DNA from: a virus | Virus record (IMG/VR): IMGVR_UViG_3300032116_000596 | Coordinates: 1-37,628 of that record | DNA: 37,628 nt | Direction: 5' to 3' (one strand) | Made by a program: the position numbers and the translations under genes | The notes under the pieces: generated by a model | The model's input: the letters and a program-made list of their open reading frames with translations, nothing else | Databases searched by the model: none | Told to the model about the DNA's origin: nothing | Part shown: positions 1,881 to 31,622 of the stretch, piece by piece | Layout: the number at the start of each line of letters is the position of its first letter | Position numbering within the stretch: position 1 is the stretch's first letter

Positions 1881-1887
1881 GTGTAAC
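1881..1887 (+). promoter_or_regulatory. GTGTAAC motif before the HNH gene
   Basis: GTGTAAC with 11 bases between it and the ATG at 1899. It is one of about a dozen GTGTAAC/GTGTAAT copies in this window placed just upstream of genes and in their orientation. I interpret it as the core of a phage late promoter; the role is inferred from recurrence only. Confidence 0.5.
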
Positions 1888-1898
1888 CATTATTGCTT

Positions 1899-2708
1899 AT
1901 GAATAAATATCAAAAATGGTACGATAAAATTATTGCTAGGGCTAAAAATAGGGTTTTATGTGGGTATTTTGAATTTCACCATATAACACCTCTCTGTGTT
2001 GGTGGTTCTGACGATGATGATAATTTGGTAGCTTTGACGGCTGAGGAGCACTATGTCTGTCATCAGCTTTTAATAAAAATATATCCAGGAAATAGAAAAA
2101 TAGTTTTTGCAGCGAATATGATGTGCGTCGGAAACACTGACGCTCAAAGGCCGAATAATAAAACGTATGCATGGTTAAGAAAGAAACTAAAAGATTCTCT
2201 AAGCCATCAAAGGTCTAACTCTTTTTGGATTAACAAGGATGGTAAAAACAAATGGGTTAGTTCTGACAAAATTAATGAATTTATCAATAATGGATGGGAA
2301 AGAGGCATGTGCAAAGGCAGACTATCGGAAGAGTGGAAGGAAAAAATACGGAAAAGTAGGAATGAGAAATATAAGTTAGATGTTGATAATTATTATAAAC
2401 AGCCATTAAAATGTCACATATGCGGAGATGTATTGCCCTATCAGCATTCAAAAGCGAGGGATGAAAGATTGAAAAGAACCAATGGAAAACCAAGGTGTAA
2501 AAAAACAGAGTGCAATTCAATCACAACAAAAAAATTCTTTGAAGAAAAAAGGCTGAATTCACCGCCGAAAGAAGCCTCCTATAGTTCTTGCCAGTGTTGT
2601 GGGGGCAGAACAAATGGGAAGAAAAGGAAGTATTGTTCTCAAAAATGCCACTTAAAAGTACTAAACGAAAGCAAGAGAAAATCTGAACAAAATAATAAAG
2701 CCTATTAA
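1899..2708 (+). CDS. HNH homing endonuclease, 269 aa
   Basis: The N-terminal 60 residues carry an HNH nuclease core: FEFHHITPLCVGG, an acidic run DDDDNLVAL and EEHYVCHQLL, giving the His-His, Asn and final His pattern of free-standing phage homing endonucleases. The C-terminal half has two Cys clusters, CHICGDVLP with a later C-x4-C, and CQCCGGRT with YCSQKCH, likely zinc fingers for DNA binding. It lies against the strand of all its neighbours, is AT-richer and contains almost no GGCC, unlike the phage genes, which points to recent arrival. Start: ATG at 1899, with an in-frame TTG at 1893 possible. Beside it lies a truncated relative of the adjacent metallopeptidase gene, suggesting homing into that locus. 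Confidence 0.85.
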   Translation: MNKYQKWYDKIIARAKNRVLCGYFEFHHITPLCVGGSDDDDNLVALTAEEHYVCHQLLIKIYPGNRKIVFAANMMCVGNTDAQRPNNKTYAWLRKKLKDSLSHQRSNSFWINKDGKNKWVSSDKINEFINNGWERGMCKGRLSEEWKEKIRKSRNEKYKLDVDNYYKQPLKCHICGDVLPYQHSKARDERLKRTNGKPRCKKTECNSITTKKFFEEKRLNSPPKEASYSSCQCCGGRTNGKKRKYCSQKCHLKVLNESKRKSEQNNKAY

Positions 2709-2716
2709 TAATAGGC
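2700..2716. repeat. Inverted repeat at the HNH/remnant junction
   Basis: GCCTATTA and TAATAGGC, 8-bp arms around a single A. It contains the stop codon of the HNH gene on the plus strand and the stop of the metallopeptidase remnant on the minus strand. Read on the minus strand it is followed by a T-rich run and could act as a weak terminator; it could also be a scar of the insertion event. Confidence 0.5.
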
Positions 2717-2827
2717 AAAAATACTGTCAACGGTTGCATTAGCCTCTACCAGTTCGGGGTGGTTAGCTTCAATGAGTTTGGTGATGGTTTCAGCGATTTG
2801 TGGGCTGGTAATATCGAATGATGGCAT
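2705..2827 (-). pseudogene. Truncated metallopeptidase paralogue, 40 codons
   Basis: A 40-codon reading frame starting MPSFDITSPQIAETITKLIE and continuing with ANHPELVEANATVDS. It aligns along its whole length with the first 39 residues of the metallopeptidase at 1343-1840 (MPNYDQATPEIISLINETIN, then HPELVEA) and then stops at the edge of the HNH gene, before any HExxH motif. Sequence divergence is substantial, so it is not a fresh duplication. Its A-rich leader also resembles that of the intact gene. It is best read as the 5' remnant of a related allele or paralogue cut off by the HNH insertion. Whether the 40-residue peptide is still made is unknown. Confidence 0.75.
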
Positions 2828-2861
2828 GGTTTGTGTGTTTTTGGGTTTGTTTGGTTAAAAT

Positions 2862-3020
2862 TTAGTCTTTCTTTTCGGCCAGTTTTAGGCAGGTTTCTCT
2901 GATTTTACTATCTAGACAAGCGGCAACGGCCAATGTGACCATGCATTCTTGAATATGTTCAAGCTCTTCGGGCGTGAAGTCCCAAGTGCTTTCTAGTTCG
3001 TCTAGGAGGGTTTGGATCAT
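2862..3020 (-). CDS. Small acidic protein, 52 aa
   Basis: Begins MIQTLLDELESTWDFTPEEL and continues as a Glu/Leu/Ala-rich sequence ending LAEKKD, predicted mostly helical with two Cys in the middle. It directly follows a strong TTGACA-N17-TATATT promoter whose -10 box ends six bases before the ATG, so the transcript should start at or next to the start codon. No Shine-Dalgarno is present. Function unknown; the promoter position supports the start choice. Confidence 0.6.
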   Translation of the reverse strand: MIQTLLDELESTWDFTPEELEHIQECMVTLAVAACLDSKIRETCLKLAEKKD

Positions 3021-3026
3021 GGGCAA

Positions 3027-3055
3027 AATATAAACTCTCAGGGTTAGTTTGTCAA
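3027..3055 (-). promoter_or_regulatory. Sigma70-type promoter, leaderless geometry
   Basis: On the minus strand, TTGACA (3055-3050), a 17-base spacer, then TATATT (3032-3027). Six bases separate the -10 box from the ATG at 3020, so the predicted start site falls on or beside that ATG. Confidence 0.75.
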
Positions 3056-3058
3056 GGG

Positions 3059-3226
3059 TTAATCTAACAAATCTTCTTCTTCCACGAAATAGCCGTAAGA
3101 GTCTAATTCTTTTTCATTCAATTCGGCGCATTTACTTTGGGCCGAACTTTTGTTTCTATAAGCGGCCATTAATTGGGCGGTTTCGCATTTAGAGTGGTCG
3201 ATTGAGAATAGGAGGTAGATTTTCAT
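3059..3226 (-). CDS. Small protein, 55 aa
   Basis: Begins MKIYLLFSIDHSKCETAQLM and ends in an acidic tail (VEEEDLLD). The ATG overlaps the TGA of the YopX-like gene (ATGA), so translation is probably coupled. Two Cys and a His are present but no clear zinc motif. Its stop lies just upstream of the promoter for the next gene. Family not recognised. Confidence 0.6.
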   Translation of the reverse strand: MKIYLLFSIDHSKCETAQLMAAYRNKSSAQSKCAELNEKELDSYGYFVEEEDLLD

Positions 3227-3833: not shown

Positions 3834-3836
3834 AAG

Positions 3837-3926: not shown

Positions 3927-3931
3927 GGGTT

Positions 3932-3959: not shown

Positions 3960-3962
3960 GTT

Positions 3963-5077: not shown

Positions 5078-5482
5078 TTAGTAAATAATTCCTTCTTCTG
5101 ATTCAGAAATCGAGTAAATAATTCGGCGAAATCCAGTTCTCTTGAACAAAGCCTCGCAGTTCTGGCAAGGACGGGCTAGGGCTACTTCGTCTTTATTATT
5201 GATGCGAACAATGGCAAAAGTTATTTCGGAAGGATCATGTTTTAAACGTTTGATAAGCGCCACCTCCGCGTGCAAACTGGCAACATATTTGGCATTCGAG
5301 TCGCGAGTTGGCTTGTAGTGCCCATATCGGTGATATGGATGGAGTTTGTTGTAATTGTTAAAACCCAACCCTACGAGTCGATTTTTCTTAAAAGCACCCG
5401 CCAAAATAAAGTGCTGGCCCGTCTGCTTTTCGGGCCGATAGATTCGGGCGAGGTCGATTAAGGTTAGGAGTTTTTTGTTCAT
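5078..5482 (-). CDS. Cytidine/deoxycytidylate deaminase-fold protein, 134 aa
   Basis: Residues 71-73 are HAE (SLHAEVALIKRL) and residues 105-109 are PCQNC (ARPCQNCEALFKRTG). These are the zinc-binding and proton-shuttling motifs of the cytidine deaminase superfamily. In phages such enzymes usually convert dCMP to dUMP for dTMP supply or edit other pyrimidine substrates. Length is typical for the single-domain type. The gene has its own promoter, TTGACA-N16-TAAATT, lying inside the end of the upstream gene, with the -10 box six bases before the ATG. Substrate cannot be decided from sequence by eye. Confidence 0.8.
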   Translation of the reverse strand: MNKKLLTLIDLARIYRPEKQTGQHFILAGAFKKNRLVGLGFNNYNKLHPYHRYGHYKPTRDSNAKYVASLHAEVALIKRLKHDPSEITFAIVRINNKDEVALARPCQNCEALFKRTGFRRIIYSISESEEGIIY

Positions 5483-5679
5483 GCGGCTAATTTAACGCTT
5501 TCGGGCGGAATGTCAACGGTTTTTTCTCCCGCCAATTCTTCGCAAATATAAAAACCCTTTTCGCCAAGCGACGGCGGAACAAAATGCCCGCCTGTGATTC
5601 TTTGTTTGCAATTTGGGCAATTATGAAACCATGTAGAGTAGTGTTTGCGCTTATTTTTTGTTTCTTTTGAAAGTTTCAC
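5479..5679 (-). CDS. Small zinc-ribbon-like protein, 66 aa, GTG start
   Basis: Starts with GTG (AAG-TGA of the previous gene overlaps it as GTGA). The product begins MKLSKETKNKRKHYSTWFHN and has CPNCKQ at residues 21-26 and a further Cys about 20 residues later (YICEELAG). One half of a zinc ribbon is clear, the second half is incomplete. Its TGA overlaps the deaminase ATG (ATGA). Function unknown. Confidence 0.6.
   Translation of the reverse strand: MKLSKETKNKRKHYSTWFHNCPNCKQRITGGHFVPPSLGEKGFYICEELAGEKTVDIPPESVKLAA
5489..5516 (-). promoter_or_regulatory. Sigma70-type promoter inside upstream gene
   Basis: Minus strand: TTGACA (5516-5511), 16-base spacer, TAAATT (5494-5489), six bases to the deaminase ATG at 5482. 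It is embedded in the 3' end of the gene at 5479-5679 and predicts a leaderless deaminase mRNA. Confidence 0.7.
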
Positions 5680-6447: not shown

Positions 6448-6454
6448 GTGTAAC
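6448..6454 (+). promoter_or_regulatory. GTGTAAC motif overlapping an opposing promoter
   Basis: GTGTAAC oriented toward the gene at 6486. It is followed by AGGTTTAAGGA, a string also found after the motif at 29559. It overlaps on the opposite strand the -10 box of the methyltransferase promoter (6452-6457), and lies next to the inverted repeat AACCTA-GTC-TAGGTT (6452-6466). Confidence 0.5.
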
Positions 6455-6485: not shown

Positions 6486-7358
6486 ATGTTCGTTTCTAGT
6501 AAAAATTGCCCAATTTTCGCCAACTTTTTGGCCCAAAACTCCGCGCCAACGACAGGGCAATTCTTTTTGGCGACAGACGCATCTATCTCTGTAGATAGCA
6601 GCTTGGAACCAAATCGCGTTTTCGGCCAGTCTAGAGTTTCTGATGATTTTAATGTAGCTGGAGCGCAAATTGGCAAGTTTTCGGCTACGTTTTTGCCACT
6701 GATTGGGCCGAATTCTGCCACGGAAACACAAAATCAGATTGCTTTAATAACAGGATTAACTGGTGATTTCGCTACGGGTCACAACATCAAGTTCGGCAAC
6801 TTCTCCCTCAAACAATGCTATTTGTCAAGTTTGAATTTGGACATTTCGCCGCAAACAGTTGTCGGGGTCAAGGCTGATTTTGACGTTTACAACCTATCAG
6901 AAATCACTGGCCAAAGTTTCACAGGCCAAAATGTTTCGCACATCTTAACAAACAATGGTTCTGGCGCGTATTTAGAAAGTATTCACGCTTTGGCGGTGGG
7001 AGTTTCTGGTTCTGGCGTTAGTTTGCCCGATTCTAAAGAGCAGATTTCGATTAGCTATAGGATAAACAGACAACCTGTTTATAATTTAGGCGATACCTAC
7101 CCATCAACAGTAATCTTAGATAGTATAGAAAAGCAAGTTTCAGTGAACGGCGAAAATGTTGGAAATTTTATTGGATTCTCTGGAGAACGTGCCGTCTTGA
7201 ATTTGGCGTTTCATCCTTTTTCGACATTTATTACAGGAACGGTGACGAATAATGGGTTGTTCGACATTTGCACTACGGGTAAGGTTGTTTCTCAGAATTT
7301 GGATGTTTCGGCGGAAGGTGCTGGTGGAGCGGTAACTATTTTAGAAAACGTCTATTGA
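6486..7358 (+). CDS. Tail-tube-like virion protein, 290 aa
   Basis: Ser/Thr/Gly/Asn/Val-rich with few charges, typical of a beta-sandwich virion protein. The segment CYLSSLNLDISPQTVVGVKA followed by DFDVYN parallels CFLNNYSLEAAVGSFPTVSV and SFDAANI in the tail tube protein at 26422-27546, and a later R-x-P...LG...P pattern (INRQPVYNLGDTYP against LSRTPIEQLGSRFP) also matches. I infer a diverged tube paralogue, perhaps a tail terminator or a decorated tube form. The ATG at 6486 is chosen because an AAGGA lies 14 bases upstream; an in-frame TTG at 6474 is possible. A GTGTAAC element lies upstream. It stands apart from the main tail block. Confidence 0.6.
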   Translation: MFVSSKNCPIFANFLAQNSAPTTGQFFLATDASISVDSSLEPNRVFGQSRVSDDFNVAGAQIGKFSATFLPLIGPNSATETQNQIALITGLTGDFATGHNIKFGNFSLKQCYLSSLNLDISPQTVVGVKADFDVYNLSEITGQSFTGQNVSHILTNNGSGAYLESIHALAVGVSGSGVSLPDSKEQISISYRINRQPVYNLGDTYPSTVILDSIEKQVSVNGENVGNFIGFSGERAVLNLAFHPFSTFITGTVTNNGLFDICTTGKVVSQNLDVSAEGAGGAVTILENVY

Positions 7359-7382
7359 CAAACTCTTGTTTTGGGATAAATT
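7355..7382 (+). promoter_or_regulatory. Sigma70-type promoter, leaderless geometry (plus strand)
   Basis: TTGACA (7355-7360), 16-base spacer, TAAATT (7377-7382), six bases to the methyltransferase ATG at 7389. The -35 box overlaps the stop of the preceding gene. It is the only clear plus-strand member of this class found here. Confidence 0.7.
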
Positions 7383-7388
7383 GGGCCG

Positions 7389-8144
7389 ATGATTGAAAAA
7401 CTAATTTTGGGCGATTGTTTGGAGAAAATGGCGGAAATTCCTAGTGGGTCGGTGGATTGTTTTATTTGTGATCCTCCATATGGGCAAACGCCGCTAAAGT
7501 GGGACAAACTATTGGATTTTAAACTTTTATGGAAAGAGTTAGATAGGATATGTAAAAAGGACGCTGCGATTTTATTGTTTGGACAAGAACCTTTTTCGTC
7601 TTATTTAAGGCTATCTAATATTTCGGCATATAAATACGATTGGTATTGGCAAAAAGAAAGACTAACGAACGTTTTTCAAGTTAAGAGACGGCCTGGGAGA
7701 GTCGTAGAAACCGTTTCTGTTTTTTATAAAGAGCAGCCCACCTATCAACCTCAAAAACAAAAGCACGAAGGAAAGTTAGTTTCTAATAAAATTGGAGAAA
7801 ATGCCAGATGGTCGGAAACAATGGCTGGCGCTAATCCGAAAACAAAACCATTGGAATATTTTGATGACGGCACTAGACATCCTCTTCAAATTCTAAAAAT
7901 AAAACGAGATAATTGCAGAAAACTCTTGCATCCGACACAAAAACCACTTGAGCTATTGGAATATTTCGTCAAAACATATACCGTAGAAGGTGACGTAGTT
8001 TTAGACTGCTGTATGGGTAGCGGCACAACATGTCTTGCCGCAAAAAACCTTGGACGGCAATTTATTGGCATTGAAAAGGACGAAAAATATTACAATATCG
8101 CCAAAACTAGAATATTTGGAGAGGATTCTGCCGCGCCGATGTAA
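7389..8144 (+). CDS. DNA methyltransferase, beta class (N4-C or N6-A), 251 aa
   Basis: The catalytic motif FICDPPYGQTPLKWDK is near the N-terminus (about residues 25-40) and the AdoMet-binding motif VVLDCCMGSGTTCLAAKNLG is near the C-terminus, followed by FIGIEKDEKYY. This circular order (IV before I) marks the beta class of amino-methyltransferases. The target-recognition region lies between, at about residues 90-190. Likely protects phage DNA or regulates it; no cognate endonuclease gene is adjacent. It is preceded by a sigma70-type promoter with the -10 box six bases from the ATG and no Shine-Dalgarno, so it may be an early gene among late ones. Confidence 0.9.
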   Translation: MIEKLILGDCLEKMAEIPSGSVDCFICDPPYGQTPLKWDKLLDFKLLWKELDRICKKDAAILLFGQEPFSSYLRLSNISAYKYDWYWQKERLTNVFQVKRRPGRVVETVSVFYKEQPTYQPQKQKHEGKLVSNKIGENARWSETMAGANPKTKPLEYFDDGTRHPLQILKIKRDNCRKLLHPTQKPLELLEYFVKTYTVEGDVVLDCCMGSGTTCLAAKNLGRQFIGIEKDEKYYNIAKTRIFGEDSAAPM

Positions 8145-8941: not shown

Positions 8942-8948
8942 GTGTAAC
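8942..8948 (+). promoter_or_regulatory. GTGTAAC motif before the PAS gene
   Basis: GTGTAAC with eight bases to the ATG at 8957 in a 59-base intergenic gap. No Shine-Dalgarno is present, so a transcript starting just after the motif would be leaderless. Confidence 0.6.
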
Positions 8949-8956: not shown

Positions 8957-9625
8957 ATGGACGAACAGGTTGTTGCCTCACACATTGCCCAAATTATTGG
9001 AACTCTTGCCGCAGGGTTTGTTTTTTTGGCCAAGTATAGGGAAGTTTTAGGGTTTATTTGGCAGCTTTTTCTTCTTGCAGCCAAGCCTTTTCAATGTTTT
9101 TGGCGGTGGATTAAATTGGCACGGAAACTAGAGGCGTGTCAAGCGAAAAGCGAACAGCGCTTTGATTCAATAGAAAAGTCCATCAAAGACTTAACCCTTT
9201 TTGTAAAAGAAAAACTCTCTCCTAATGGAGGCTCCAGTCCCGTTGACGCTATTAAAAGAATTGAAAACCGCCAAATCGCCTCAGACGCTCGCCAAGCGGC
9301 CCTTTTAAACGATGCTAACGATGGAATTTTCTATTGTGATGTAAATGGCCGAAACTCTTGGGTAAACAGAACCTACGCCCGATTCTTGGGTTGCGGCACA
9401 AATGAGCTTTTAGGCTTGGGCTGGAAAAAGTTTATTCACACGGATGAGCTAAAGCGTTACCATCAAGTTTGGTCCGAGGCTTTTGCCGATGGTTGCGAAT
9501 TTGAAGACTTTGTAACCTTCTATGACGTAGAAAACAAGCCAATCAAACTAAAAATCGCCGCAAACGCCATCCAAAACGAAAAAGGCGAAACAGTTAGTTA
9601 CATTGGCCAAGTGATTAAGGTCTGA
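8957..9625 (+). CDS. Membrane-anchored PAS-domain protein, 222 aa
   Basis: Residues about 8-50 form one or two hydrophobic segments (IAQIIGTLAAGFVFLAKY, then VLGFIWQLFLLAA) followed by a basic stretch, so the N-terminus is probably in the membrane. Residues 60-110 look coiled-coil. From about residue 115 there is a PAS domain: ALLNDANDGIFYCDVNGR, then NRTYARFLGC, ELLGLGWKKFIHTDEL and a final GETVSYIGQVIKV strand. No kinase, cyclase or DNA-binding output domain follows. The N-terminal layout recalls holin-like anchors. It may sense a ligand or redox state at the membrane, but partner and output are unknown. PAS domain call is solid; function is inference. Confidence 0.75.
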   Translation: MDEQVVASHIAQIIGTLAAGFVFLAKYREVLGFIWQLFLLAAKPFQCFWRWIKLARKLEACQAKSEQRFDSIEKSIKDLTLFVKEKLSPNGGSSPVDAIKRIENRQIASDARQAALLNDANDGIFYCDVNGRNSWVNRTYARFLGCGTNELLGLGWKKFIHTDELKRYHQVWSEAFADGCEFEDFVTFYDVENKPIKLKIAANAIQNEKGETVSYIGQVIKV

Positions 9626-9640
9626 AATTAACTATAAATA

Positions 9641-9647
9641 GTGTAAC
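9641..9647 (+). promoter_or_regulatory. GTGTAAC motif before the sigma/terminase operon
   Basis: GTGTAAC directly preceded by TATAAATA (9633-9640), which matches the T4 late promoter consensus, although this is the only site where the two coincide. The motif is followed by an inverted GTTAC (GTAAC-N7-GTTAC). The ATG at 9668 is 20 bases downstream. Confidence 0.55.
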
Positions 9648-9667
9648 GGCTGGTGTTACTATTAAAT

Positions 9668-9994
9668 ATGACACCAAAGTATTGTCCCAACTGCGGAACC
9701 AAAGCTCCCTCCGCCACAGCCAAGTTTTGCACCAATTGCGGCCAAAGTTTAAATACGTTAACTTCTACCCTTGACAAGAAACTAGCCTCCCTGTCTAAGC
9801 TTGACTGGAGTGATAAAAGCGAGGCGGAAGAAACTAATGTGACTGAATTGCCAGATATTGAAGAACTCCAAGTAACAATTTCTGGCGATGATGACGATGA
9901 AAAATACGTCAACACCTTAACCTCATTCTCCTTTACCGCAAACGGCGGAACGGTTTTCGTCAAGCCAAAGAAAGTTAAACCCCGCCACATTTAA
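9668..9994 (+). CDS. Zinc-ribbon protein, 108 aa
   Basis: Residues 6-9 (CPNC) and 21-24 (CTNC) form a classic double C-x2-C zinc ribbon (YCPNCGTKAPSATAKFCTNC). The remainder is acidic, with a DDDDE run, and ends basic (KPKKVKPRHI). Start ATG at 9668 chosen over an in-frame GTG at 9653. Its TAA overlaps the sigma gene ATG (TAATG). Being first in the operon with the phage sigma factor, it could be an accessory transcription protein, but that is only context. Confidence 0.75.
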   Translation: MTPKYCPNCGTKAPSATAKFCTNCGQSLNTLTSTLDKKLASLSKLDWSDKSEAEETNVTELPDIEELQVTISGDDDDEKYVNTLTSFSFTANGGTVFVKPKKVKPRHI

Positions 9995-10677
9995 TGCTAA
10001 CCTACGAAGATTGCGCCGAACAAATCGAAAAAGAACTAAAAAAGCGCCGCCGAAAGTGGACGCTTGATATTCATCGTTGGCTGGATTGGGACGATGTTGC
10101 GCAAAATCTTCGCCTTCACATTTCTAAAAAGTGGCACCTTTGGGATCAAACGCGCAAACTTGCGCCGTGGATTCAGCGCATTGCGAGCAATCAAATCTAC
10201 AACATGTTTCGCAACCTTTACACGAATCACGCCCGCCCGTGCGTGCAGTGTAAATTTGCCGTTGGAGAAGACGGTTGTTCTGTTACCGAAAGCAACAACC
10301 AATGCAGCGAATGCCCCATCTACGAAAAGTGGGAAAAGACTAAAAAATACGGGTATCACGCCAAAATGCCGCTCGAACTTGAGCATCACGCCCAAGAAGT
10401 TAACAACAAAATTGACGACACAATCAATTTCCAAGAAACTATGCGGCGCGTCTTGGTTGAACTCGAAAAACACATGACCGCCAAAAGGTTTGAGGCGTTT
10501 AAAATGCTGTTTATCGACAATGTGCCAGAGGCAGATGTTGTAGTCGCCCTAAGAATTCGCGGCAATCCCAAGAATAAATATAGCCAGAAAAAATTACTAA
10601 GCGCATACCGTGAAAGTCTCGCCAAAGAGGCTAAAAAGATTATCGCGGAGAGCGATATAGCAGAATATTGGCCCTAA
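9994..10677 (+). CDS. Phage RNA polymerase sigma factor (ECF-like), 227 aa
   Basis: Residues about 28-75 match sigma region 2: LDWDDVAQNLRLHISKKW, then LAPWIQRIASNQIYNMFRN, the DNA-melting/-10 recognition helices. A Cys cluster follows (C83, C86, C95, C104, C107), which probably binds zinc and is typical of this environmental-phage sigma subgroup. The C-terminal part (RFEAFKMLFIDNVPEADVVV, then LRIRGNPKNKYSQKKLLSAY) resembles region 4. Such factors redirect host RNA polymerase to phage late promoters. The gene lies in a coupled operon ending with the large terminase, and that operon carries the GTGTAAC element also found before other structural genes, so autoregulation is plausible. Family call good; promoter specificity inferred. 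Confidence 0.75.
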   Translation: MLTYEDCAEQIEKELKKRRRKWTLDIHRWLDWDDVAQNLRLHISKKWHLWDQTRKLAPWIQRIASNQIYNMFRNLYTNHARPCVQCKFAVGEDGCSVTESNNQCSECPIYEKWEKTKKYGYHAKMPLELEHHAQEVNNKIDDTINFQETMRRVLVELEKHMTAKRFEAFKMLFIDNVPEADVVVALRIRGNPKNKYSQKKLLSAYRESLAKEAKKIIAESDIAEYWP

Positions 10678-10679
10678 AC

Positions 10680-11759
10680 ATGGCAACCCCGCCCAAAAAA
10701 CCCTACATCTTAAGCGAGAATCAAAAATCCTTGATTCTGGACAACTTTGGCAAAGGAGTAACCGACGTTAACCTCCTTACTAAACTCGTTACTGGCAACG
10801 ACAAAAAGGATGGCCGCGACATTGAAGGCAAAGCTGTTCGACTATTTTTGGCCGAAAACGGCAAACGCTACAAGACGAAACATAATCCAACACGCGAAGA
10901 TTCGCCAGAACTCTCAGAAGAAAATAAAAAGCAGATAGAATTATGGATGGCCGAAGACAAGACAACCTTGGAAATGGCCAAGGCAATTTTCGGCGCGGAA
11001 ACAAAAAAGTTGAGCCGCGAATGGCGGGCGGTTTTTGCCTTTGTGCAAGAGGTGAATCCAGATTATCGACCCGAACAAACGCCGCTTTCTACCACAAAAT
11101 ACTATGCGCCGAGGGAATTGAGTCGTGTAGTGGCTTACATTAATCAATCGGTTGGAATCTCCCTAGACCCTGAAAAAATCTCTGGCAAATACAAAGCCTA
11201 TGTCGAAAAACTAAAGTGCAACATGGGGTCGATGAGGTTTTCGCGCATTTGTGATTCGTATTTAAACCAGAAAGACCGCGATTTGTTTATCGAAGAGTTT
11301 GTGCGCTTGACATGGGACAAGCCAGATTTAACGGCAGATGAGCTTAACCTGTATATGAGTGTTTGCAAGGATATTGTGAACGGGGAAATTCTTTCGGCTC
11401 ATATTTTAACGCTAAACTCGGTGTTTGATGAAATGGGCGAAGACCCGACTGAATTTTCCGTCAAGTTTTCGGAGATGCTCAATGCCAAAACCTCCGAATA
11501 CCAGCAGAACCAAAAACGTGTCGCAGATACGATCAAAAAACTACAAGGTGATCGAGCGGATAGATTAAAGAGTCAATCCAAAGACGAAACATCGTTTATT
11601 TCTATTGTTCAACTTGCCCAAGAAGAGACAGAGCGTAAAAACATGCTTAGATTGGCCGAATTACAACGGGCCGCAATTACGGAAGAGGCTAATCGCTTAG
11701 AATCAATGGAAGGGTTTCGTTGTAGAATCATGGGAATAGGAAAAGAAGATGTTATCTGA
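10680..11759 (+). CDS. Candidate terminase small subunit / DNA-binding protein, 359 aa
   Basis: The N-terminal 120 residues contain two repeats of helix-turn-helix size: YILSENQKSLILDNFGKGVT onward, and LSEENKKQIELWMAEDKTTL onward, each followed by a basic helix. The middle is helical with conserved-looking aromatic residues, and the C-terminal 100 residues form a charged coiled coil (KRVADTIKKLQGDRADRLKS). DNA-binding N-terminus, oligomer-type coiled coil and position two genes before the large terminase fit a small terminase, but it is longer than usual and I cannot confirm homology. ATG at 10680, two bases after the sigma stop; overlaps the nuclease gene by 11 bases. Confidence 0.5.
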   Translation: MATPPKKPYILSENQKSLILDNFGKGVTDVNLLTKLVTGNDKKDGRDIEGKAVRLFLAENGKRYKTKHNPTREDSPELSEENKKQIELWMAEDKTTLEMAKAIFGAETKKLSREWRAVFAFVQEVNPDYRPEQTPLSTTKYYAPRELSRVVAYINQSVGISLDPEKISGKYKAYVEKLKCNMGSMRFSRICDSYLNQKDRDLFIEEFVRLTWDKPDLTADELNLYMSVCKDIVNGEILSAHILTLNSVFDEMGEDPTEFSVKFSEMLNAKTSEYQQNQKRVADTIKKLQGDRADRLKSQSKDETSFISIVQLAQEETERKNMLRLAELQRAAITEEANRLESMEGFRCRIMGIGKEDVI

Positions 11760-14536: not shown

Positions 14537-14561
14537 ACTTTTGCCAACTTTCCATGCCCGC

Positions 14562-14568
14562 GTGTAAC
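14562..14568 (+). promoter_or_regulatory. GTGTAAC motif before the portal gene
   Basis: GTGTAAC with nine bases to the ATG at 14578. There is no Shine-Dalgarno. It supports 14578 as the real portal start rather than the in-frame ATG at 14554, which lies upstream of the motif. Confidence 0.6.
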
Positions 14569-20154: not shown

Positions 20155-20161
20155 ATTACAC
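20155..20161 (-). promoter_or_regulatory. GTGTAAT motif before the small RNA candidate
   Basis: GTGTAAT read on the minus strand, about 20 bases before the first stem of the RNA candidate and 40 bases from the plus-strand copy at 20199, giving a divergent pair. Confidence 0.45.
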
Positions 20162-20198: not shown

Positions 20199-20205
20199 GT
20201 GTAAT
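20199..20205 (+). promoter_or_regulatory. GTGTAAT motif before protease-scaffold gene
   Basis: GTGTAAT with 11 bases to the ATG at 20217; the intervening bases contain CTATAC and no Shine-Dalgarno. Confidence 0.6.
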
Positions 20206-22424: not shown

Positions 22425-23561
22425 ATGAAAATTACTCTTAAAGAAACCCCCGAACAAATCCAGCTAATCCAAGCGATGGCTTCTCGCGATCCTCTCGTTC
22501 GCGTGCAAGCTCAAACCAGCTTTGCCGAATACATGGGCAAGCCTCTCGCCGAAGCGATCATGCAGGCTCCTACCATTGGCAACTTCTATACGCCAATGAC
22601 TTTTGCCAAGGACACCAACCCTACTATTCCGCTTGACCTGTTCAGTGATGTGAATGACGTTGGTTACTTCTCTGTGTGGAGTCAGCACGCCGATGGTGGT
22701 CTTGGCACCAATGAAATCAAGCCCCCTTCTCAAGAAATGCATGTGGACACTTACAAGCTGGAAACAGCCGTGAGTTTCCTTCGCAAGCATGCGGCCCAAA
22801 GCCGTCTTGGTGTGGTTGCTAAAGCTATGAGCCGTCTTGGTCAAGAAATTCTCTTCCTTCAAGACAATTTCGCCGCTGGCCCCCTCATGAACGCTCTTGC
22901 CAATGCTCAAACGAATGGCCTACAGCACGTTTTCCGTGTCGGCGTAACCGACCGTTTCCTTCCCCAAGATTTGGCCAACATTCGTCTTCGCATGAAACGC
23001 ATCAACACCTCTTGGATCAAAGGCACTCCTGTTGGCGCTCAAGGCAAAATCACTGACCTTCTCATGAGTCCCGAAGCTGCGGAAGAACTTCGTGGTATGG
23101 CTTACAACGCTATTAACACAAAGGCTGCCCCTCAAACTTCCGCCGTTAAAGATAGCGTTCCTGCTCCAGAAAGCATTCGTCAAAGCCTGTTTGAAAGCGC
23201 TGGTATCAGCGAATTTATGGGCATTACAATGCACGAATATAACGAGTTCGGCGAATCTCGCCGATTCAATACCGTGTTCGACGTTGCGGCTGGTTCTACC
23301 ACTTACGATACTTTCGCAGGTGGCAGCGCAAGTGCCTTCTCTGATTCTGGCGACCAGCTTATGCTCGGTATTGACCGCTCCAAAGAATGCTTGCTTCGCC
23401 TAATTGCGACCGACTCTGAAACTGGTTCTACGCTTGACCTTCAAGCTGACAATCAGTTCGGCGTTCTTAACCGCGCTCAAGAAAAGATTGGCTACTATGG
23501 CGGCATGGAAGAAGGTCGTCTAGTCCTTGACGTTCGCGGCTTGGTTGGTTTGATTCTCTAA
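22425..23561 (+). CDS. Major capsid protein, 378 aa
   Basis: HK97-fold-type capsid protein by position, length and sequence character: a helical N-arm, then PTIPLDLFSDVNDVGYFSVW (probable start of the E-loop region), a long helix around FLRKHAAQSRLGVVAKAMSR, the P-domain with GKITDLLMSPEAAEEL and a terminal strand RLVLDVRGLVGLIL. Codon use is more uniform than in other genes, as expected for the most expressed protein. A strong Rho-independent terminator lies 28 bases after the stop. Only a weak Shine-Dalgarno-like GAAAG precedes the ATG. Confidence 0.85.
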   Translation: MKITLKETPEQIQLIQAMASRDPLVRVQAQTSFAEYMGKPLAEAIMQAPTIGNFYTPMTFAKDTNPTIPLDLFSDVNDVGYFSVWSQHADGGLGTNEIKPPSQEMHVDTYKLETAVSFLRKHAAQSRLGVVAKAMSRLGQEILFLQDNFAAGPLMNALANAQTNGLQHVFRVGVTDRFLPQDLANIRLRMKRINTSWIKGTPVGAQGKITDLLMSPEAAEELRGMAYNAINTKAAPQTSAVKDSVPAPESIRQSLFESAGISEFMGITMHEYNEFGESRRFNTVFDVAAGSTTYDTFAGGSASAFSDSGDQLMLGIDRSKECLLRLIATDSETGSTLDLQADNQFGVLNRAQEKIGYYGGMEEGRLVLDVRGLVGLIL

Positions 23562-24357: not shown

Positions 24358-24364
24358 GTGTAAC
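24358..24364 (+). promoter_or_regulatory. GTGTAAC motif before connector gene
   Basis: GTGTAAC with seven bases to the ATG at 24372, preceded by GGTTTAAG. One of the tightest motif-to-start spacings. Confidence 0.6.
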
Positions 24365-24371
24365 CTACTGG

Positions 24372-24863
24372 ATGCCCAACATCTATTCCACCATTGCCAC
24401 TGGCATTTTCGACTACGAGTTTGACGGTAACACTGGCATTGCCACGGTTACACAAATTTCTGGCTGGCTTTCGGCCAACATTGGCGGGTTGAATGTTTTG
24501 CTGCATGAGAATTTTACGGGCGAAGACCCGAGCATTAATGACGCTGCCGCTGACATTTTCGGCAAACAATATTTGGCCGCTTACAACAAACGAGCGGCCC
24601 GAAATGCTCTACGAGGCGTTATTAACTCTTCTACTAATGGAGACAACATTCTTTCTGTAAGCGACGGCGACAACAGAATTTCGTTTGTTAATAAGCGGGA
24701 GGTAGCTCTCAGTTTCCAAAGTGCCGCGAAAGATTTGGCCGAAGAAATTGACGCTCTCTCTAACAAGTATCTCATGTATAAAGCCGCTCCGTTGCAAGTC
24801 GCTGGCTGGGAAGCGCCTTTAAGTGGCGCATATCCTTGGCTTATTGATCCTCCCCGAAGTTAA
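24372..24863 (+). CDS. Head-tail connector-like protein, 163 aa
   Basis: Begins MPNIYSTIATGIFDYEFDGN. A beta-rich first part (TGIATVTQISGWLSANIGGL) is followed by helices (AAADIFGKQYLAAYNKRAAR, later FQSAAKDLAEEIDALSNKYL). The helical bundle and size fit the adaptor proteins that attach beneath the portal, and the gene lies after the capsid module and before a terminator. The assignment is by position and fold impression only. Confidence 0.5.
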   Translation: MPNIYSTIATGIFDYEFDGNTGIATVTQISGWLSANIGGLNVLLHENFTGEDPSINDAAADIFGKQYLAAYNKRAARNALRGVINSSTNGDNILSVSDGDNRISFVNKREVALSFQSAAKDLAEEIDALSNKYLMYKAAPLQVAGWEAPLSGAYPWLIDPPRS

Positions 24864-26421: not shown

Positions 26422-27546
26422 TTAAGAGAATACCGCGTTGCTAGACGACCCAGAAACGAAGACCCCCTTATTCGTAGTATTCGGAGCGCCAAGCTGCGCA
26501 GAAAACGTCAGGTCAACGGTTCGATTAGAACCAATATCAACCGAAGAACTTTCGCTATCAAACTGACATCCTTTAAGGGTGTAAATCATAGCGGCAGCGC
26601 CATTTGGTTGATTAATATTGATAGTAATATCATTTGTAGAGGTGTCGTCAAGATAGGCCGCGAGGTTACGCTTAACCTGCTCATTTGCAATGGCCGAAAC
26701 AGAAAGGGTTGCTGTTACAGGGAAATCCACTGGACGAGCAAATGGGAATCTGGAGCCAAGTTGTTCAATCGGCGTACGAGAGAGCGGAAGTGAGAGCGAT
26801 AGATTTTGGACACGAATACCGTCTGTTCCATTTAGGTTATGCATTGGAGATGCAAGACCAGAAGCAGTTCCCGTAAGATTCCCCCATGTGATGGAAATAT
26901 CCCCTGGTCGAAGAGCGATTGGGCCAGTACCAGTTGTTGGCAGCGGAAGTCGAACGCCAGTATTTTGAGCAAGCGCTTGGCCATTCACAAGGTCAACGGC
27001 TGGTGAATTTGTTCCAGTGACGGCTCCTTGATGATAGTAAAGATCACCATTAATATTCGCTGCATCAAATGACACACTTACGGTTGGGAAAGAGCCAACG
27101 GCAGCTTCAAGAGAGTAGTTGTTTAGGAAACAGTTTCCGATACCGAGAACAGCCTTGCCAGAAAGAGAGGTTTCATTGTTAATGTCAATGCCTTCTGATG
27201 CTTCTACAACGTAAAGATTAATACCGCTAGAGGTTACGGCGTGGCCAGAGGCGAAGTTTGCCTGAGACAGCGAATTTGGATTTTGAACGTAAAAGCCCAA
27301 TGCCCTTTCTACCTCTCCATCTGTAAGGATGTAGGAAAGGTCAAAGGACACGGTTGGAGGGGAGGTCACAATGCTTCCGACCCTTGGTAATTCCCCAAGC
27401 TGCAAAATATCTGTACGCGCAATTTCGTCAGACCAGCCATAGCTCTGAACACGTTTAAGGTGATAATGAGAACCAGTGCCAGTAGAATTGACAGCTTGGC
27501 TTGCGTAAACGGCCAAAGCGTTGTAAAGTGAGCGATTTTTTGCCAT
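26422..27546 (-). CDS. Major tail tube protein, 374 aa
   Basis: Begins MAKNRSLYNALAVYASQAVN and continues with VQSYGWSDEIARTDILQLGE, then GSIVTSPPTVSFDLSYILTD. Repeated beta-strand patterns, few charged residues and Ser/Thr/Gly/Asn richness point to a tube beta-barrel, with an insertion domain in the middle. The end VDLTFSAQLGAPNTTNKGVF is typical of the final strand of tube-like proteins. A diverged relative lies at 6486-7358. It is the last gene of the minus-strand block and has its own GTGTAAC element. The tube call is from sequence character and position before the tape measure region. Confidence 0.7.
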   Translation of the reverse strand: MAKNRSLYNALAVYASQAVNSTGTGSHYHLKRVQSYGWSDEIARTDILQLGELPRVGSIVTSPPTVSFDLSYILTDGEVERALGFYVQNPNSLSQANFASGHAVTSSGINLYVVEASEGIDINNETSLSGKAVLGIGNCFLNNYSLEAAVGSFPTVSVSFDAANINGDLYYHQGAVTGTNSPAVDLVNGQALAQNTGVRLPLPTTGTGPIALRPGDISITWGNLTGTASGLASPMHNLNGTDGIRVQNLSLSLPLSRTPIEQLGSRFPFARPVDFPVTATLSVSAIANEQVKRNLAAYLDDTSTNDITININQPNGAAAMIYTLKGCQFDSESSSVDIGSNRTVDLTFSAQLGAPNTTNKGVFVSGSSSNAVFS

Positions 27547-27568
27547 ATTTTAAGAAGGGTTGTCTTTG

Positions 27569-27575
27569 GTTACAC
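27569..27575 (-). promoter_or_regulatory. GTGTAAC motif before the tail tube gene
   Basis: GTGTAAC on the minus strand, 22 bases from the ATG at 27546. It overlaps the last Val codon and stop of the upstream gene, so the element is embedded in that gene's end. Confidence 0.55.
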
Positions 27576-28439
27576 AGAGACGCGAGGATTTCTGTATTGG
27601 GCGCAATTAAAATCCACAAATCCAACATAAAGTTCTGTTTTTAGTCCGCGCCGAAGTGAGTCTGTCATTTTGCTGGTTGTTACTTCATCAATAAAAATGT
27701 TGTTCGTGCCGCTGGCCGCAACAGTTTCAGTGTAGGAGTAACGGTTGTTCTTCAAGCCGCCCCATTCATTTAACGGACTAGCTTCTAATGGCAATTCTTT
27801 GAAAACTTCATCGCTTGTATCGGCGAAAAGTCCCAAAACCCCGTCTAGTTGGTAGGGGTCTTTGGCAAAAACAACCATGTTGGCGCGAATTACAGAAGAA
27901 TCTGTCCCGCCCAAAGCTAGTGGCTCATTCTTTTGCGACTGAACGTTTACAAAAATCGCGGGAATTTTTTGAGCATACGGCGGAAGGTATGGGGTAGAAA
28001 TGTCTGTGCCGATTGTATTGTATTGGTTGTTGGAATTCTGGCAAACTTCGACAATGAGAGCTTCCTCGTCTTGGTTTGTAAGGTAAATGTTGAAATCTTT
28101 AACGGAATAGCTTCCCGTAATGCTTTGAGAGGAACTTAAACCGCTTGTGAGAACGCGGCCATTCTGGAAATCCATGTTAAAGTAATCGCCGCTAGGAGTT
28201 TGAAACGAACCATTGATGTAAAAACCGCTCGGAACCACCGCTCCAGAAACGGAAGAATCTGTGACCCATTCTTTGAATGGTGAACCCCATGCGCGAAGAT
28301 GGTCTGGTAACTGAGTGTCGCTGTAATGTGTCAAGGCCCCTCCAGTTACAGTAAAAGCGCCCCCTCTTTGTAGGAGGGTGTTGTCGGCCCAAAGCATGAA
28401 CGAATTGGTAAACTTGTGGATAAATTGCGGGGCGATCAT
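27570..28439 (-). CDS. Neck/tail virion protein, 289 aa
   Basis: Begins MIAPQFIHKFTNSFMLWADN. Ser/Gly/Asn/Thr-rich with long beta-prone stretches (GSYSVKDFNIYLTNQDEEAL, later IPAIFVNVQSQKNEPLALGG), no membrane segment. ATG overlaps the previous TGA (ATGA). Located between the neck-type gene and the tube gene, it may be a tail terminator or completion protein. Not recognised as a family. Confidence 0.6.
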   Translation of the reverse strand: MIAPQFIHKFTNSFMLWADNTLLQRGGAFTVTGGALTHYSDTQLPDHLRAWGSPFKEWVTDSSVSGAVVPSGFYINGSFQTPSGDYFNMDFQNGRVLTSGLSSSQSITGSYSVKDFNIYLTNQDEEALIVEVCQNSNNQYNTIGTDISTPYLPPYAQKIPAIFVNVQSQKNEPLALGGTDSSVIRANMVVFAKDPYQLDGVLGLFADTSDEVFKELPLEASPLNEWGGLKNNRYSYTETVAASGTNNIFIDEVTTSKMTDSLRRGLKTELYVGFVDFNCAQYRNPRVSV

Positions 28440-29074
28440 TCGGTTTTAATAGGGATAACTTTGGTATTGGAAATGGCCAAAAATTGGTTTCTGTATTTAT
28501 TTACAATTTCGGAAATGTATTTCGTGGCGATGAATGGTTCGCGAAAGGATTTTTGTGTTTTTACCTGAATACCAGCGCCAGAACGGCCATCTCTATATTC
28601 AATGTTCAAGTAACGGCCCAACCCAGAAATGCCTTTTTCGATTCCTCGCGCCCAAGATTCGCCATCCTTCCACGGCATTGGTGTTGCGGCGAAAATATCC
28701 GCCGCTGTAGGGAAATTTCTCACCTCGTAAATCCACTCCAACCCTTTACTTGTTACTGAAAACAAACGCATTCCTTTGATGAGTTTGCGCACTGGCTCTG
28801 TTGGATTGTCGTTGCGATCAAAGCCAATAAATGAGAACAAATCGCCATACCCGCGCAAAAACTTCGACTGGTAGCCGAGTTTTGGCCCCATGTCAATTTC
28901 TTGGGTAACTGGATGATTATCAAACTCGTCTAGCATTTCTTGGCGGATTTGGTTGAAAAGCGGGCGAATTCTCAATTCCACAACTTTTCGCAGGGCAAAT
29001 TGCACGACTTTACTCTCTTTAACCTTGCGGGTTATAAAATCGGAGATTCTTTTAATGGAAAGACGGCGGGCCAT
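28436..29074 (-). CDS. Neck/tail completion-like protein, 212 aa
   Basis: I use the ATG at 29074 (MARRLSIKRISDFITRKVKE), which overlaps the previous stop as TAATG; an upstream in-frame ATG at 29104 is less likely. Basic helical N-terminus, then mixed alpha/beta with GLGRYLNIEYRDGRSGAGIQ. Position after the head-closure-like gene fits an HK97 gp10-like neck protein, but homology is not evident by eye. Confidence 0.55.
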   Translation of the reverse strand: MARRLSIKRISDFITRKVKESKVVQFALRKVVELRIRPLFNQIRQEMLDEFDNHPVTQEIDMGPKLGYQSKFLRGYGDLFSFIGFDRNDNPTEPVRKLIKGMRLFSVTSKGLEWIYEVRNFPTAADIFAATPMPWKDGESWARGIEKGISGLGRYLNIEYRDGRSGAGIQVKTQKSFREPFIATKYISEIVNKYRNQFLAISNTKVIPIKTE

Positions 29075-29535
29075 TAGTCTGTTGGAACGAGGAAAAATTG
29101 CCAATAGTTCTGTTTGGCGAAAAATCCAACGGGCCGAGGATTTCCTTGTAAAATGTAACGCTTGCCAGCGATTTCGACTCGTTTCGCAGTTTTGAGAAAG
29201 TCGTAGGCTGTTGCATCTACCGTTAATTTGACGCTGCCAACGGGTAAAATAATTCTGTTGGTAATAGAAGTAACTTCCGAACCGTCTTTGTGGTCGAAAA
29301 CTTCTTCTTCTGATTTTAAGTAACGAATTCGGGCATTAAAAGTTAACGATCTTTCGGCGGAAGAAACTTGGGCCGAGTTTACGCGATATGCCGAGTTGTA
29401 ATTGGGATTTCCCGCGAGACTGGTTTTTTTATCAATTTGAAAAGCAGTAACTTCTTGGGCAAACGTCGCATGTACATTATCTACGAGCGAATCAACTATA
29501 TCCTTTTGCGCCTGTGATAAAAAACTTGTTGCCAT
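29074..29535 (-). CDS. Head-closure-like protein, 153 aa
   Basis: Begins MATSFLSQAQKDIVDSLVDN, a helix followed by a beta-rich domain (AERSLTFNARIRYLKSEEEV, then ILPVGSVKLTVDATAYDFLK and KRVEIAGKRYILQGNPRPVG). The helix-then-barrel order and 153-residue length resemble head-closure (stopper) proteins. It is the first gene of the inverted block, with GTGTAAT nine bases before the ATG. Function is inferred from fold impression and order. Confidence 0.55.
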   Translation of the reverse strand: MATSFLSQAQKDIVDSLVDNVHATFAQEVTAFQIDKKTSLAGNPNYNSAYRVNSAQVSSAERSLTFNARIRYLKSEEEVFDHKDGSEVTSITNRIILPVGSVKLTVDATAYDFLKTAKRVEIAGKRYILQGNPRPVGFFAKQNYWQFFLVPTD

Positions 29536-29544
29536 GATAAGGAA

Positions 29545-29551
29545 ATTACAC
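29545..29551 (-). promoter_or_regulatory. GTGTAAT motif of the inverted tail block
   Basis: GTGTAAT on the minus strand, nine bases from the ATG at 29535. It is back to back with a plus-strand GTGTAAC only seven bases away, so ATTACAC and GTGTAAC form an inverted repeat. Confidence 0.6.
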
Positions 29552-29558
29552 TTTTAAC

Positions 29559-29565
29559 GTGTAAC
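29559..29565 (+). promoter_or_regulatory. GTGTAAC motif of the right tail block
   Basis: GTGTAAC 27 bases before the ATG at 29593, followed by AGGTTTAAGGA, which provides a Shine-Dalgarno at good spacing. The same downstream string follows the motif at 6448. Confidence 0.6.
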
Positions 29566-29592
29566 TCTCTCAAAGGTTTAAGGATTTCCATT

Positions 29593-29880
29593 ATGCAGGC
29601 GAAGGCTTCTCTACAGCAACGTCAGCGTCGTCTTGTCACGGCGCTGTTCAAAGAGTTTCTAGAAATTCTAGAAGAACAAAAAGCAGCCCACGACGAATAT
29701 TTTGGAAATCTACTTGAAAAACTACCGCCTGAATACTTGCCCGTATTAGTTGTTGGAAATCCGTGGTCGGACGAAAAGCATCTTCGCCTCCGAAAAAAGG
29801 TTCTTGACAAGGGTAACAATGTTATCCGCGAATCGGATTTAGAGCTGGATAACTATTCAGTAGGCTTTTGCATTTCTTAA
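29593..29880 (+). CDS. Hypothetical virion-region protein, 95 aa
   Basis: Begins MQAKASLQQRQRRLVTALFK; a long basic-then-acidic helix (FLEILEEQKAAHDEYFGNLL) followed by LPPEYLPVLVVGNPWSDEKH and a charged end. It has a clear Shine-Dalgarno (AAGGA) nine bases before the ATG. First gene of the right plus-strand tail block. Not recognised; possibly a tail assembly factor. Confidence 0.6.
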   Translation: MQAKASLQQRQRRLVTALFKEFLEILEEQKAAHDEYFGNLLEKLPPEYLPVLVVGNPWSDEKHLRLRKKVLDKGNNVIRESDLELDNYSVGFCIS

Positions 29881-29895
29881 AGTTATTATTCACAT

Positions 29896-30639
29896 ATGAT
29901 TAAATTCACCCCCCTCTACGAATTCACCGTCCAAGAAAAGACCGAAAAAATCAACAAGGTCAAAAAAGAAATTGACGGCAAAAACGTTACTGTCGAAGAA
30001 ACTGAGATTGTTGAATCGCCTGTCAAGGTGTTTTTCAAGAAACCAAATCGCCGCGATGAAGAAGATGCCGATCTTTTCTTTGCCAAGCGCATGAATTGGT
30101 ATGTTAATGAGCACAAGCTGATGACCAAAGCTATGCTTTACAACAAATACAAGGATTCGGGCGGGTTGGTTAGCGAAGAAACTGTTAAAGAGCTTGTGAA
30201 AGTTTATGCTCGTATTGGTGAAACCGCTAATGAAATTGCTCTCCTCGAAGCGGCTAAAAAGAATTCGCCGAAACAAAAAATCAAGCTTGACAGCCTGAAA
30301 GAAGAATACGCCAACCTGCAAAAACAGGTTATCGACTTGCAGCAATACCAAAACTCCCTGCTTGCCCAAACCGCCGATTCAAAGGCTGAAAATGATCTTT
30401 ATTATTGGTATCTTTTCAACTTCACTTACACGCAAAAAGAAGATGAAGACCCTGTTAAACTCGTTCAAGGTTCTGAATTTGAAATTCAAAAGGATTATTT
30501 CTACAATCTTGAAGAGGAGCCAACCGACCTTTACAATCAAATGAAAAAGAAAGTCGATTTGATGGCCGCGATTTGGCTCTACAATAAGGGTCTTGCGCCC
30601 GAAAAATTCAAAGAATTGATGGACAAGGGCGGTGAATAA
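29896..30639 (+). CDS. Tail assembly chaperone candidate, 247 aa
   Basis: Begins MIKFTPLYEFTVQEKTEKIN. Mostly helical, Lys/Glu-rich, with a coiled-coil middle (SLKEEYANLQKQVIDLQQYQ). Two genes upstream of the tape measure is the usual place of the tail chaperones (G and GT in lambda). Here the second reading frame begins with a GTG overlapping this gene's end by eight bases instead of arising by an obvious slippery-site frameshift. A TATTAT six bases before the ATG may be a -10 box. Role by position only. Confidence 0.5.
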   Translation: MIKFTPLYEFTVQEKTEKINKVKKEIDGKNVTVEETEIVESPVKVFFKKPNRRDEEDADLFFAKRMNWYVNEHKLMTKAMLYNKYKDSGGLVSEETVKELVKVYARIGETANEIALLEAAKKNSPKQKIKLDSLKEEYANLQKQVIDLQQYQNSLLAQTADSKAENDLYYWYLFNFTYTQKEDEDPVKLVQGSEFEIQKDYFYNLEEEPTDLYNQMKKKVDLMAAIWLYNKGLAPEKFKELMDKGGE

Positions 30640-31615
30640 TTACACCAGCTTAATCTGCGAAATTTTCAACGGCTTCACCCCCATAAAGGTTGGAGCCGAA
30701 CTTTTATATTTGCGCCACATCAATTTGCACGATCAAGCAAATTTAACCGCCGCATTTGAGAAACAAAAACAGCGTGCCATTGATTCAAGCATTCCAACAG
30801 AGGCGGAGCTTACGGCCAAAATTAAGGAAAACGGCGAATGGCCTGAATCGGACCAACTTCTTCTTGTTGAGAAAGAATCTCATGTAGAAACCCTCAAAAA
30901 CACTAAGAAAGCGCTCCAACTAAAAAGCCAAAAGGACGAAATCCAAAAAACAATAGACGAAGAAACGGCCAAAATAAACGAATTGTTATTTAAAAAACGC
31001 GCCGCAATTTGTCAAATCGCCCCAAGTGGCCGAACTGCCGAAGATTACGCAGTTCAGTTTTCCAACGAAGAATTCATTCGGCATCTCGTATATTCCGATA
31101 GGGAATTAAAACAATTAAGATACGACGAAGAAGAATTCGCCAATCTAGATTTAAAACCCTTGATGGACGCTTATTATAAAGTGGCCGATTCAATTACTGA
31201 CGACACTATACAACATATAGTGTTGAGTGACGCTTTCTCGCTATATATTGGGCAAACAGACAAGCCGTATGACTTTTTTGCGCGGCCAATTGTATCTTTA
31301 AGCATTCATCAATTAAAGCTTTTAGTGTATGGGCGAATGTTCCTAAACATTTTCCAAAATGTTGAAAACATTCCCGAATCAATCAAAAAATCTCCCCAAG
31401 AACTACTAGATTTCGTTGACAGCCAAAGAAAACGCGAAAAAACCCAACAAAAGGGCGGCAAAAATCACAAAAACATGGGCCTAGTCGGTGCAACGGGCGA
31501 AGATTTGGACTACTATGATCCCTCCGCCAAGAAAATGAGTTTGGCCGAAGAATTAAAGAAAAACGGCGGCAAAATGAATGCCCAACAAATGATGGCGTTA
31601 ATGAATAAGTCCTGA
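30632..31615 (+). CDS. Second tail assembly chaperone candidate, 327 aa, GTG start
   Basis: Starts at GTG within the last codons of the previous gene (GTGAATAA). Begins MNNYTSLICEIFNGFTPIKV, a small beta start typical of a component binding a structural partner, followed by a long helical region with a coiled coil (KNTKKALQLKSQKDEIQKTI) and a Lys/Gln/Gly-rich tail (KTQQKGGKNHKNMG). Direct upstream position to the tape measure gene suggests a role in its assembly. Not confirmed by homology. Ends in TGA next to a GTGTAAT. Confidence 0.5.
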   Translation: MNNYTSLICEIFNGFTPIKVGAELLYLRHINLHDQANLTAAFEKQKQRAIDSSIPTEAELTAKIKENGEWPESDQLLLVEKESHVETLKNTKKALQLKSQKDEIQKTIDEETAKINELLFKKRAAICQIAPSGRTAEDYAVQFSNEEFIRHLVYSDRELKQLRYDEEEFANLDLKPLMDAYYKVADSITDDTIQHIVLSDAFSLYIGQTDKPYDFFARPIVSLSIHQLKLLVYGRMFLNIFQNVENIPESIKKSPQELLDFVDSQRKREKTQQKGGKNHKNMGLVGATGEDLDYYDPSAKKMSLAEELKKNGGKMNAQQMMALMNKS

Positions 31616-31622
31616 GTGTAAT
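31616..31622 (+). promoter_or_regulatory. GTGTAAT motif before the tape measure gene
   Basis: GTGTAAT immediately after the previous stop, 15 bases before the ATG at 31638. AAGGA lies between motif and start and may serve as a Shine-Dalgarno at short spacing. Confidence 0.55.

Follow-up and report, generated by a model that had tools for sequence, protein, structure and literature searches.

What directs the late genes of the phage represented by IMG/VR record IMGVR_UViG_3300032116_000596? This stretch of 37,628 nucleotides (nt), hereafter the window, is a 37.6-kilobase (kb) fragment of a tailed phage that encodes a terminase large subunit (TerL), a tape measure protein, a DNA methylase, PhoH and homing endonucleases, and an earlier note on it had described a repeated GTGTAAY element ahead of its late genes. 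We propose a late promoter whose single, -10-like core is the hexamer GTGTAA and which is read by the host RNA polymerase carrying a phage sigma factor; its mRNAs would be mostly leaderless. Judged from the sequence, we consider this reading probable.

GTGTAAY occurs 16 times on the two strands of the window, compared with a mean of 4.97 and a maximum of 10 in 100 dinucleotide shuffles; the roughly ten chance copies estimated previously are thus too many. Eleven of the 16 sites are found no more than 40 nt upstream of a gene start, positions that account for 3.0% of the window (P = 6.6e-14, counted from called starts, with the gene called at 14554 restarted at ATG 14578). The non-random placement beside starts claimed in the earlier note is borne out, and all eleven sites that it named are real (Table 1). 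The five others do not precede an ordinary start: one, at 21040, is on the plus strand inside gene 20217-21752, and those at 20161, 24453, 24987 and 30645 are on the minus strand.

The same element emerges from related phages. An unbiased scan covered the 45 nt before each of 1010 called starts from 14 related IMG/VR contigs. No hexamer is more strongly enriched there than GTGTAA, seen 146 times versus 9.0 expected, as the earlier note had anticipated of a motif scan, and it ranks first in each contig set scanned separately. The same pipeline recovers TATAAATA for the late genes of T4; for Bacillus phage Staley it returns GGAGGT, the Shine-Dalgarno sequence. In these control phages GTGTAA is not markedly enriched (0 observed versus 0.28 expected in T4, 2 versus 0.76 in Staley). 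The distance from GTGTAA to the ATG peaks sharply at 8-10 nt, a spacing found for 26% of copies versus about 5% for permuted hexamers. All six bases matter: the start-proximal placement is lost in each of the 18 single-base variants, none of which is clearly enriched. At the seventh position the lineage has A, T or C, and the flanks are no more than A/T-rich, so that the core of the consensus first described stands and its final Y does not.

Conservation points the same way. One relative used for comparison, a 165-kb IMG/VR contig (G009), shares 88% identity with the window in gene 22425-23561. Eleven window late genes have an orthologue in G009, and in ten of these pairs GTGTAAY is retained at a nearly equal distance while the surroundings diverge; the eleventh orthologue has CTGTAAT; the comparison of upstream regions suggested earlier thus finds the element conserved. 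Among reciprocal best pairs with less than 50% protein identity, both members carry the element 152 times versus about 65 expected if independent. Similarly, 41 independent sigma-bearing loci, a set that overlaps the discovery contigs, contain 73 spaced elements versus 14 permuted controls, and 21 contigs outside the discovery set contain 207 versus 26 for the reversed pattern.

Where GTGTAA stands within the genome is what would be expected of a promoter. It is ahead of 41% of the genes that follow a strand switch and of 4% of those 15 nt or less from the previous gene. A second upstream class, TTGACA-N17/18-TANNNT, ends 6-7 nt before the ATG (the TANNNT peak is at 6 nt) and is, by its sequence, the textbook host sigma-70 promoter type. 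Only 2 genes carry both classes by a strict count, and GTGTAA regions lack a TTGACA -35 element at 17 base pairs (bp) from the -10 position. A -35 partner of any kind upstream of GTGTAA was sought, and the signal is marginal at most (maximum 0.23 bit versus 0.20 for the 95% control). Among others, GTGTAA precedes the tape measure gene, the portal-position and pre-capsid genes and a minor tail gene, as well as homing endonucleases and the sigma/terminase operon; a clamp loader, a DnaB-like helicase, a piece of DNA polymerase and an ATP-dependent protease are among the genes preceded by the sigma-70 class. From this gene content we infer the timing, GTGTAA genes being late and sigma-70-class genes early. 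In the window, the minus-strand genes of early type are free of GTGTAAY, as noted before, and two of them (2862-3020 and 5078-5482) have TTGACA-type sigma-70 promoters. Likewise, the element does invert together with block 26422-29535. This four-gene block is inverted relative to its late-gene neighbours, with late promoters of its own, in both the window (26422-29535) and G009 (54711-57845). We also searched the operon-first genes unexplained by either motif for a third promoter class and found just weak sigma-70-like remnants and small orthologue sets.

Where would transcription begin? Among close-spaced late genes, 78 of 79 start with ATG, and Shine-Dalgarno sequences are not enriched before them; close-spaced sigma-70-class genes are likewise without Shine-Dalgarno signals, and ATG is the start codon of nearly all of them. 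Sigma-70 transcription starts about 6-7 nt past the -10 hexamer, and because the -10 of the sigma-70 class ends 6-7 nt before the ATG, its transcripts would start at the ATG itself. GTGTAA with two further bases reaches this very position, and the sigma-70 spacing calibrates the leaderless reading of the GTGTAA genes. Both promoter classes would then imply leaderless mRNAs, and most late messages probably have the start codon at their very 5' end. In the late genes with longer leaders, Shine-Dalgarno sequences are found in 18 of 70 versus 6.3 in shuffles. Two such genes in the window, 6486 and 29593, share a GGWTTAAGG-like leader with their G009 orthologues, which may be a special type of Shine-Dalgarno region.

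Which protein could read such an element? The earlier note overlooked the leaderless spacing and also a sigma factor gene in the window, whose product we call sigma A. Sigma70_r2 is matched by all 36 aligned sigma A relatives, and region 2 is nearly invariant among them. The best PHROG is phrog_1740, matched by 35 of the 36 relatives (best E 7.2e-07; window copy E 9.1e-04), and gp36 of phage phiEco32 itself matches this family with E 1.9e-45. The AlphaFold model of sigma A has a mean predicted local distance difference test (pLDDT) score of 75 and a predicted template modelling (pTM) score of 0.44. Nearly all of its top 50 Foldseek matches in the PDB are sigma factors, extracytoplasmic function (ECF) types first; these matches are all weak (best E 0.035, none below 0.001), at least partly because the domain arrangement of sigma A is uncertain. 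The family of T4 gp55 (phrog_234) was considered and rejected, sigma A having no significant profile match to gp55 or phrog_234. At least 589 IMG/VR stretches encode sigma A relatives, and none was found in INPHARED with tblastn. The gene sits in a conserved operon, in the order PAS or ~230-amino-acid (aa) protein, zinc ribbon, sigma, ~350 aa, ~305 aa and TerL, which is headed by GTGTAA in most contigs.

We propose that early in infection the host sigma-70 holoenzyme would read the TTGACA-N17-TANNNT promoters of the early genes, and that the host RNA polymerase would then be redirected to GTGTAA, without a -35 element, by a sigma factor of the phage, most probably sigma A. Transcription would start about 8-10 bp downstream of GTGTAA, and most late mRNAs would be leaderless because this position usually coincides with the ATG. 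Since the sigma A operon is itself headed by a GTGTAA promoter, its expression would be subject to positive feedback, and the sigma-70 promoter at 7355-7388, which lies upstream of the operon on the same strand, could provide the first sigma A by read-through. The phage-specific, -10-like late promoter core put forward in the earlier note thus gains support from orthologue conservation, the heads of operons, the exclusion of sigma-70 promoters, the lack of a clear -35 element and the phage sigma factor. Its likeness to T4 holds for the mode of action and fails for the sigma family, which is that of phrog_1740 and phiEco32 gp36 and not that of phrog_234 and T4 gp55.

Several observations weigh against this proposal. 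Sigma70_r4_2 is matched by 5 of the 36 sigma A relatives, which predicts a -35 element, yet none is clear; the sigma A profile aligned to the gp36 sequence gives an hhalign E of 0.31 over 26 columns, which is not significant; roughly half of the operon-first genes have neither motif; and the gene starts come from a home-made caller. In addition, a second sigma factor of greater variability, the phrog_351-like sigma B, is encoded by the larger relatives; in two contigs (G011 and G012) it lies within a sigma-70-headed operon. Sigma B is present in all eight large contigs compared, and the window fragment has none. It could therefore be that sigma B, made from an early operon, reads the same promoter and that sigma A is a product of GTGTAA transcription that acts later. 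Its presence in all eight contigs and its sigma-70-headed operon in two of them would fit a classical cascade, and the operon of sigma A is headed by GTGTAA. We regard this as unlikely nonetheless: no third strong promoter class for sigma A to serve was found, the nearly invariant region 2 of sigma A fits an invariant hexamer while sigma B is much more variable, and it is sigma A, not sigma B, that is best matched by the phiEco32 gp36 family, a member of which reads a related element. Presence and absence do not discriminate, because among 12 sigma-B contigs the 7 with sigma A are exactly the 7 with TerL, and those without sigma A also lack TerL and look like fragments. On the sequences in hand we favour sigma A as the reader, give sigma B a distinctly smaller share of belief and leave the small rest to other readings. 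We give about even odds to the broader idea that both stages of the programme of this lineage rely almost entirely on leaderless mRNAs, the start codon lying at the transcription start for both promoter classes, with a cascade of two phage sigma factors.

Could GTGTAA instead act in the mRNA, as a translation-initiation element that substitutes for the Shine-Dalgarno sequence? A distance of 8-10 nt to the ATG is within the range of ribosome-binding sites. The element is nevertheless ahead of very few tightly packed operon-internal genes, 70 of its 149 copies lie farther off, up to 50 nt, with Shine-Dalgarno sequences enriched in between, and it and the sigma-70 promoters exclude each other; we know of no standard 16S 3' end that pairs with GTGTAA. 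Operon position and the Shine-Dalgarno pattern led us to reject a ribosome-binding site, and the translational reading is very improbable. We give just as little weight to a site at which a phage activator or repressor acts on ordinary promoters: a strict, short and conserved word ahead of genes would suit such a regulator, but GTGTAA is not palindromic, keeps a fixed distance to the ATG at the -10 position, and has no other conserved core promoter element that we could find nearby. Phages with a single-subunit RNA polymerase also have phage-specific promoters before their late genes, though these are usually longer than six letters; no gene for such a polymerase was found, in a PF00940 search that lacked a positive control and is uninformative, and a promoter of this kind seems to us the least probable of all. 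A multi-subunit phage RNA polymerase was found in none of seven contigs, which favours the host polymerase as the enzyme.

How does this promoter compare with known systems? The mechanism is of a known kind, that of phage sigma factors with single-element late promoters. The closest parallel is phiEco32, whose gp36 reads the single element tAATGTAtA and starts transcription 6-8 bp downstream (PMC8948821). There, too, the sigma factor belongs to phrog_1740, the element is single and conserved, early genes rely on host sigma-70, and a phage-type promoter lies near the sigma gene itself (PMC8948821, PMC4331800); the two elements share a TGTA core and, aligned on it, have a near-equal distance to the start. 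In contrast to phiEco32, the consensus here is GTGTAA, sigma A contains an insert with four cysteines and is not significantly similar to gp36 in pairwise comparison, close kinship of the phages is not seen, the spacing is leaderless, and large contigs often have ten or more spaced sites, compared with six known gp36 promoters. The T4 late promoter TATAAATA, served by gp55, gp33 and gp45, is likewise a single -10-like element with no -35, placed before many late operons. Its consensus is not found here, where all six GTGTAA positions are required; gp55 is phrog_234, and T4 late elements lie ~24-30 nt from the ATG, with room for a leader. In phage 7-11, a phage sigma factor with a region-4-like C-terminus (SaPh711_gp47) also directs late genes, but from a bipartite promoter, GTAAtg-(16)-aCTA (PMC8948821), whereas an upstream element is not clearly detected here. 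The late promoters of AR9, AACA-(6N)-TA/G, are similarly short and phage-specific and stand before many genes, but are read by a phage multi-subunit RNA polymerase and give leaders of 26-491 nt (PMC5312081). In the literature searched, whose coverage largely leaves out subscription papers and preprints, we found no description of the GTGTAA consensus, of the lineage or of the leaderless two-class layout; the earlier note, which knew of no described phage promoter with this consensus, agrees with these searches, which gave nothing relevant.

Table 1. Genes and proposed promoter elements discussed in the text; coordinates refer to the window unless a contig is named.
Feature	Position	Strand	Remarks
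Late element GTGTAAC	1881-1887	+	Before homing-endonuclease gene 1899-2708; 11 nt to ATG
Late element	6448-6454	+	Before 6486-7358; 31 nt to start codon, longer leader; G009 orthologue keeps same distance
Late element	8942-8948	+	Before PAS-domain gene 8957-9625, heads sigma/TerL operon; 8 nt; G009 orthologue: CTGTAAT
Late element	9641-9647	+	Before zinc-ribbon gene 9668-9994, directly upstream of sigma gene; 20 nt
Late element	14562-14568	+	Before portal-position gene, start ATG 14578 rather than 14554; 9 nt
Late element	20199-20205	+	Before gene 20217-21752, which precedes putative capsid gene; 11 nt
Late element	24358-24364	+	Before gene 24372-24863; 7 nt
Late element	27569-27575	-	Before gene 26422-27546, inverted block; 22 nt
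Late element	29545-29551	-	Before gene 29074-29535, inverted block; 9 nt
Late element	29559-29565	+	Before gene 29593-29880; 27 nt
Late element	31616-31622	+	Before tape-measure gene; 15 nt
Possible nested late promoter GTGTAAC	21040-21046	+	22 nt before in-frame ATG 21069, codon 285 of 20217-21752
Host sigma-70 type early promoter	7355-7388	+	TTGACA and AT-rich -10; before DNA methylase gene
Host sigma-70 type early promoter	5483-5516	-	Leaderless spacing; before gene 5078-5482
Host sigma-70 type early promoter	3021-3055	-	Leaderless spacing; before called gene 2862-3020
Homing-endonuclease gene	1899-2708	+	
DNA methylase gene	7389-8144	+	
Phage sigma factor sigma A, 227 aa	9994-10677	+	Region 2, four-Cys insert, C-terminal helix-turn-helix
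TerL	12663-14507	+	Shares operon with sigma A
Putative major capsid gene	22425-23561		Named from position
Tape measure gene	31638-37628	+	
Sigma B family, plus third ECF-like protein in G009	G009:131269-131820, 160266-160838		
Sigma B family	G012:35905-36519; G011:37353-37922; G005:4412-4978; G010:9040-9642		

Some features of the window deserve separate mention. The start of the portal-position gene at ATG 14578 agrees with its G009 orthologue, which begins at the matching ATG. Capsid profiles gave no match to gene 22425-23561, and its putative name follows from its position. The nested site at 21040, kept in G009 (68966-68997), G005 and L006, could possibly drive a separate C-terminal, scaffold-like product; in another clade its letters are the codons Gly-Val-Ile, and coding constraint may account for them. 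Free-standing homing endonucleases repeatedly carry a late promoter, as if the two travelled together (window 1899-2708; G009:28489-29274, 155552-156286 and 158286-158978). TerL carries large in-frame inserts, possibly inteins, in G024 (9186-13904, apparently two inserts) and in the TerL-position genes of G012 (1046 aa) and G014 (1029 aa). As for the lineage, INPHARED holds no DNA match to the first 25 kb of the window, and its closest terminases are ~25% identical to that of the window. As to the host, the sole bacterial-genome contigs that encode this sigma factor, L142 and L143, come from metagenome bins labelled Flavobacteriales; since the TTGACA/TATAAT early promoters of the phages are not Bacteroidota-like, these two are perhaps mis-binned phage contigs, and the assignment is doubtful.

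Finally, as far as the sequences tell, GTGTAA marks the predicted late genes of a large and widespread group of uncultured phages. It provides a searchable six-letter late-promoter signature with a matching sigma family, which allows early and late genes of these phages to be told apart without culture, and it would add a new specificity among phage sigma factors, of use in building orthogonal promoters. Should the leaderless reading hold, for which the spacing of the early and of the late promoters gives two independent indications, these would be tailed phages built largely on leaderless translation, pointing to a host that translates leaderless mRNAs efficiently.

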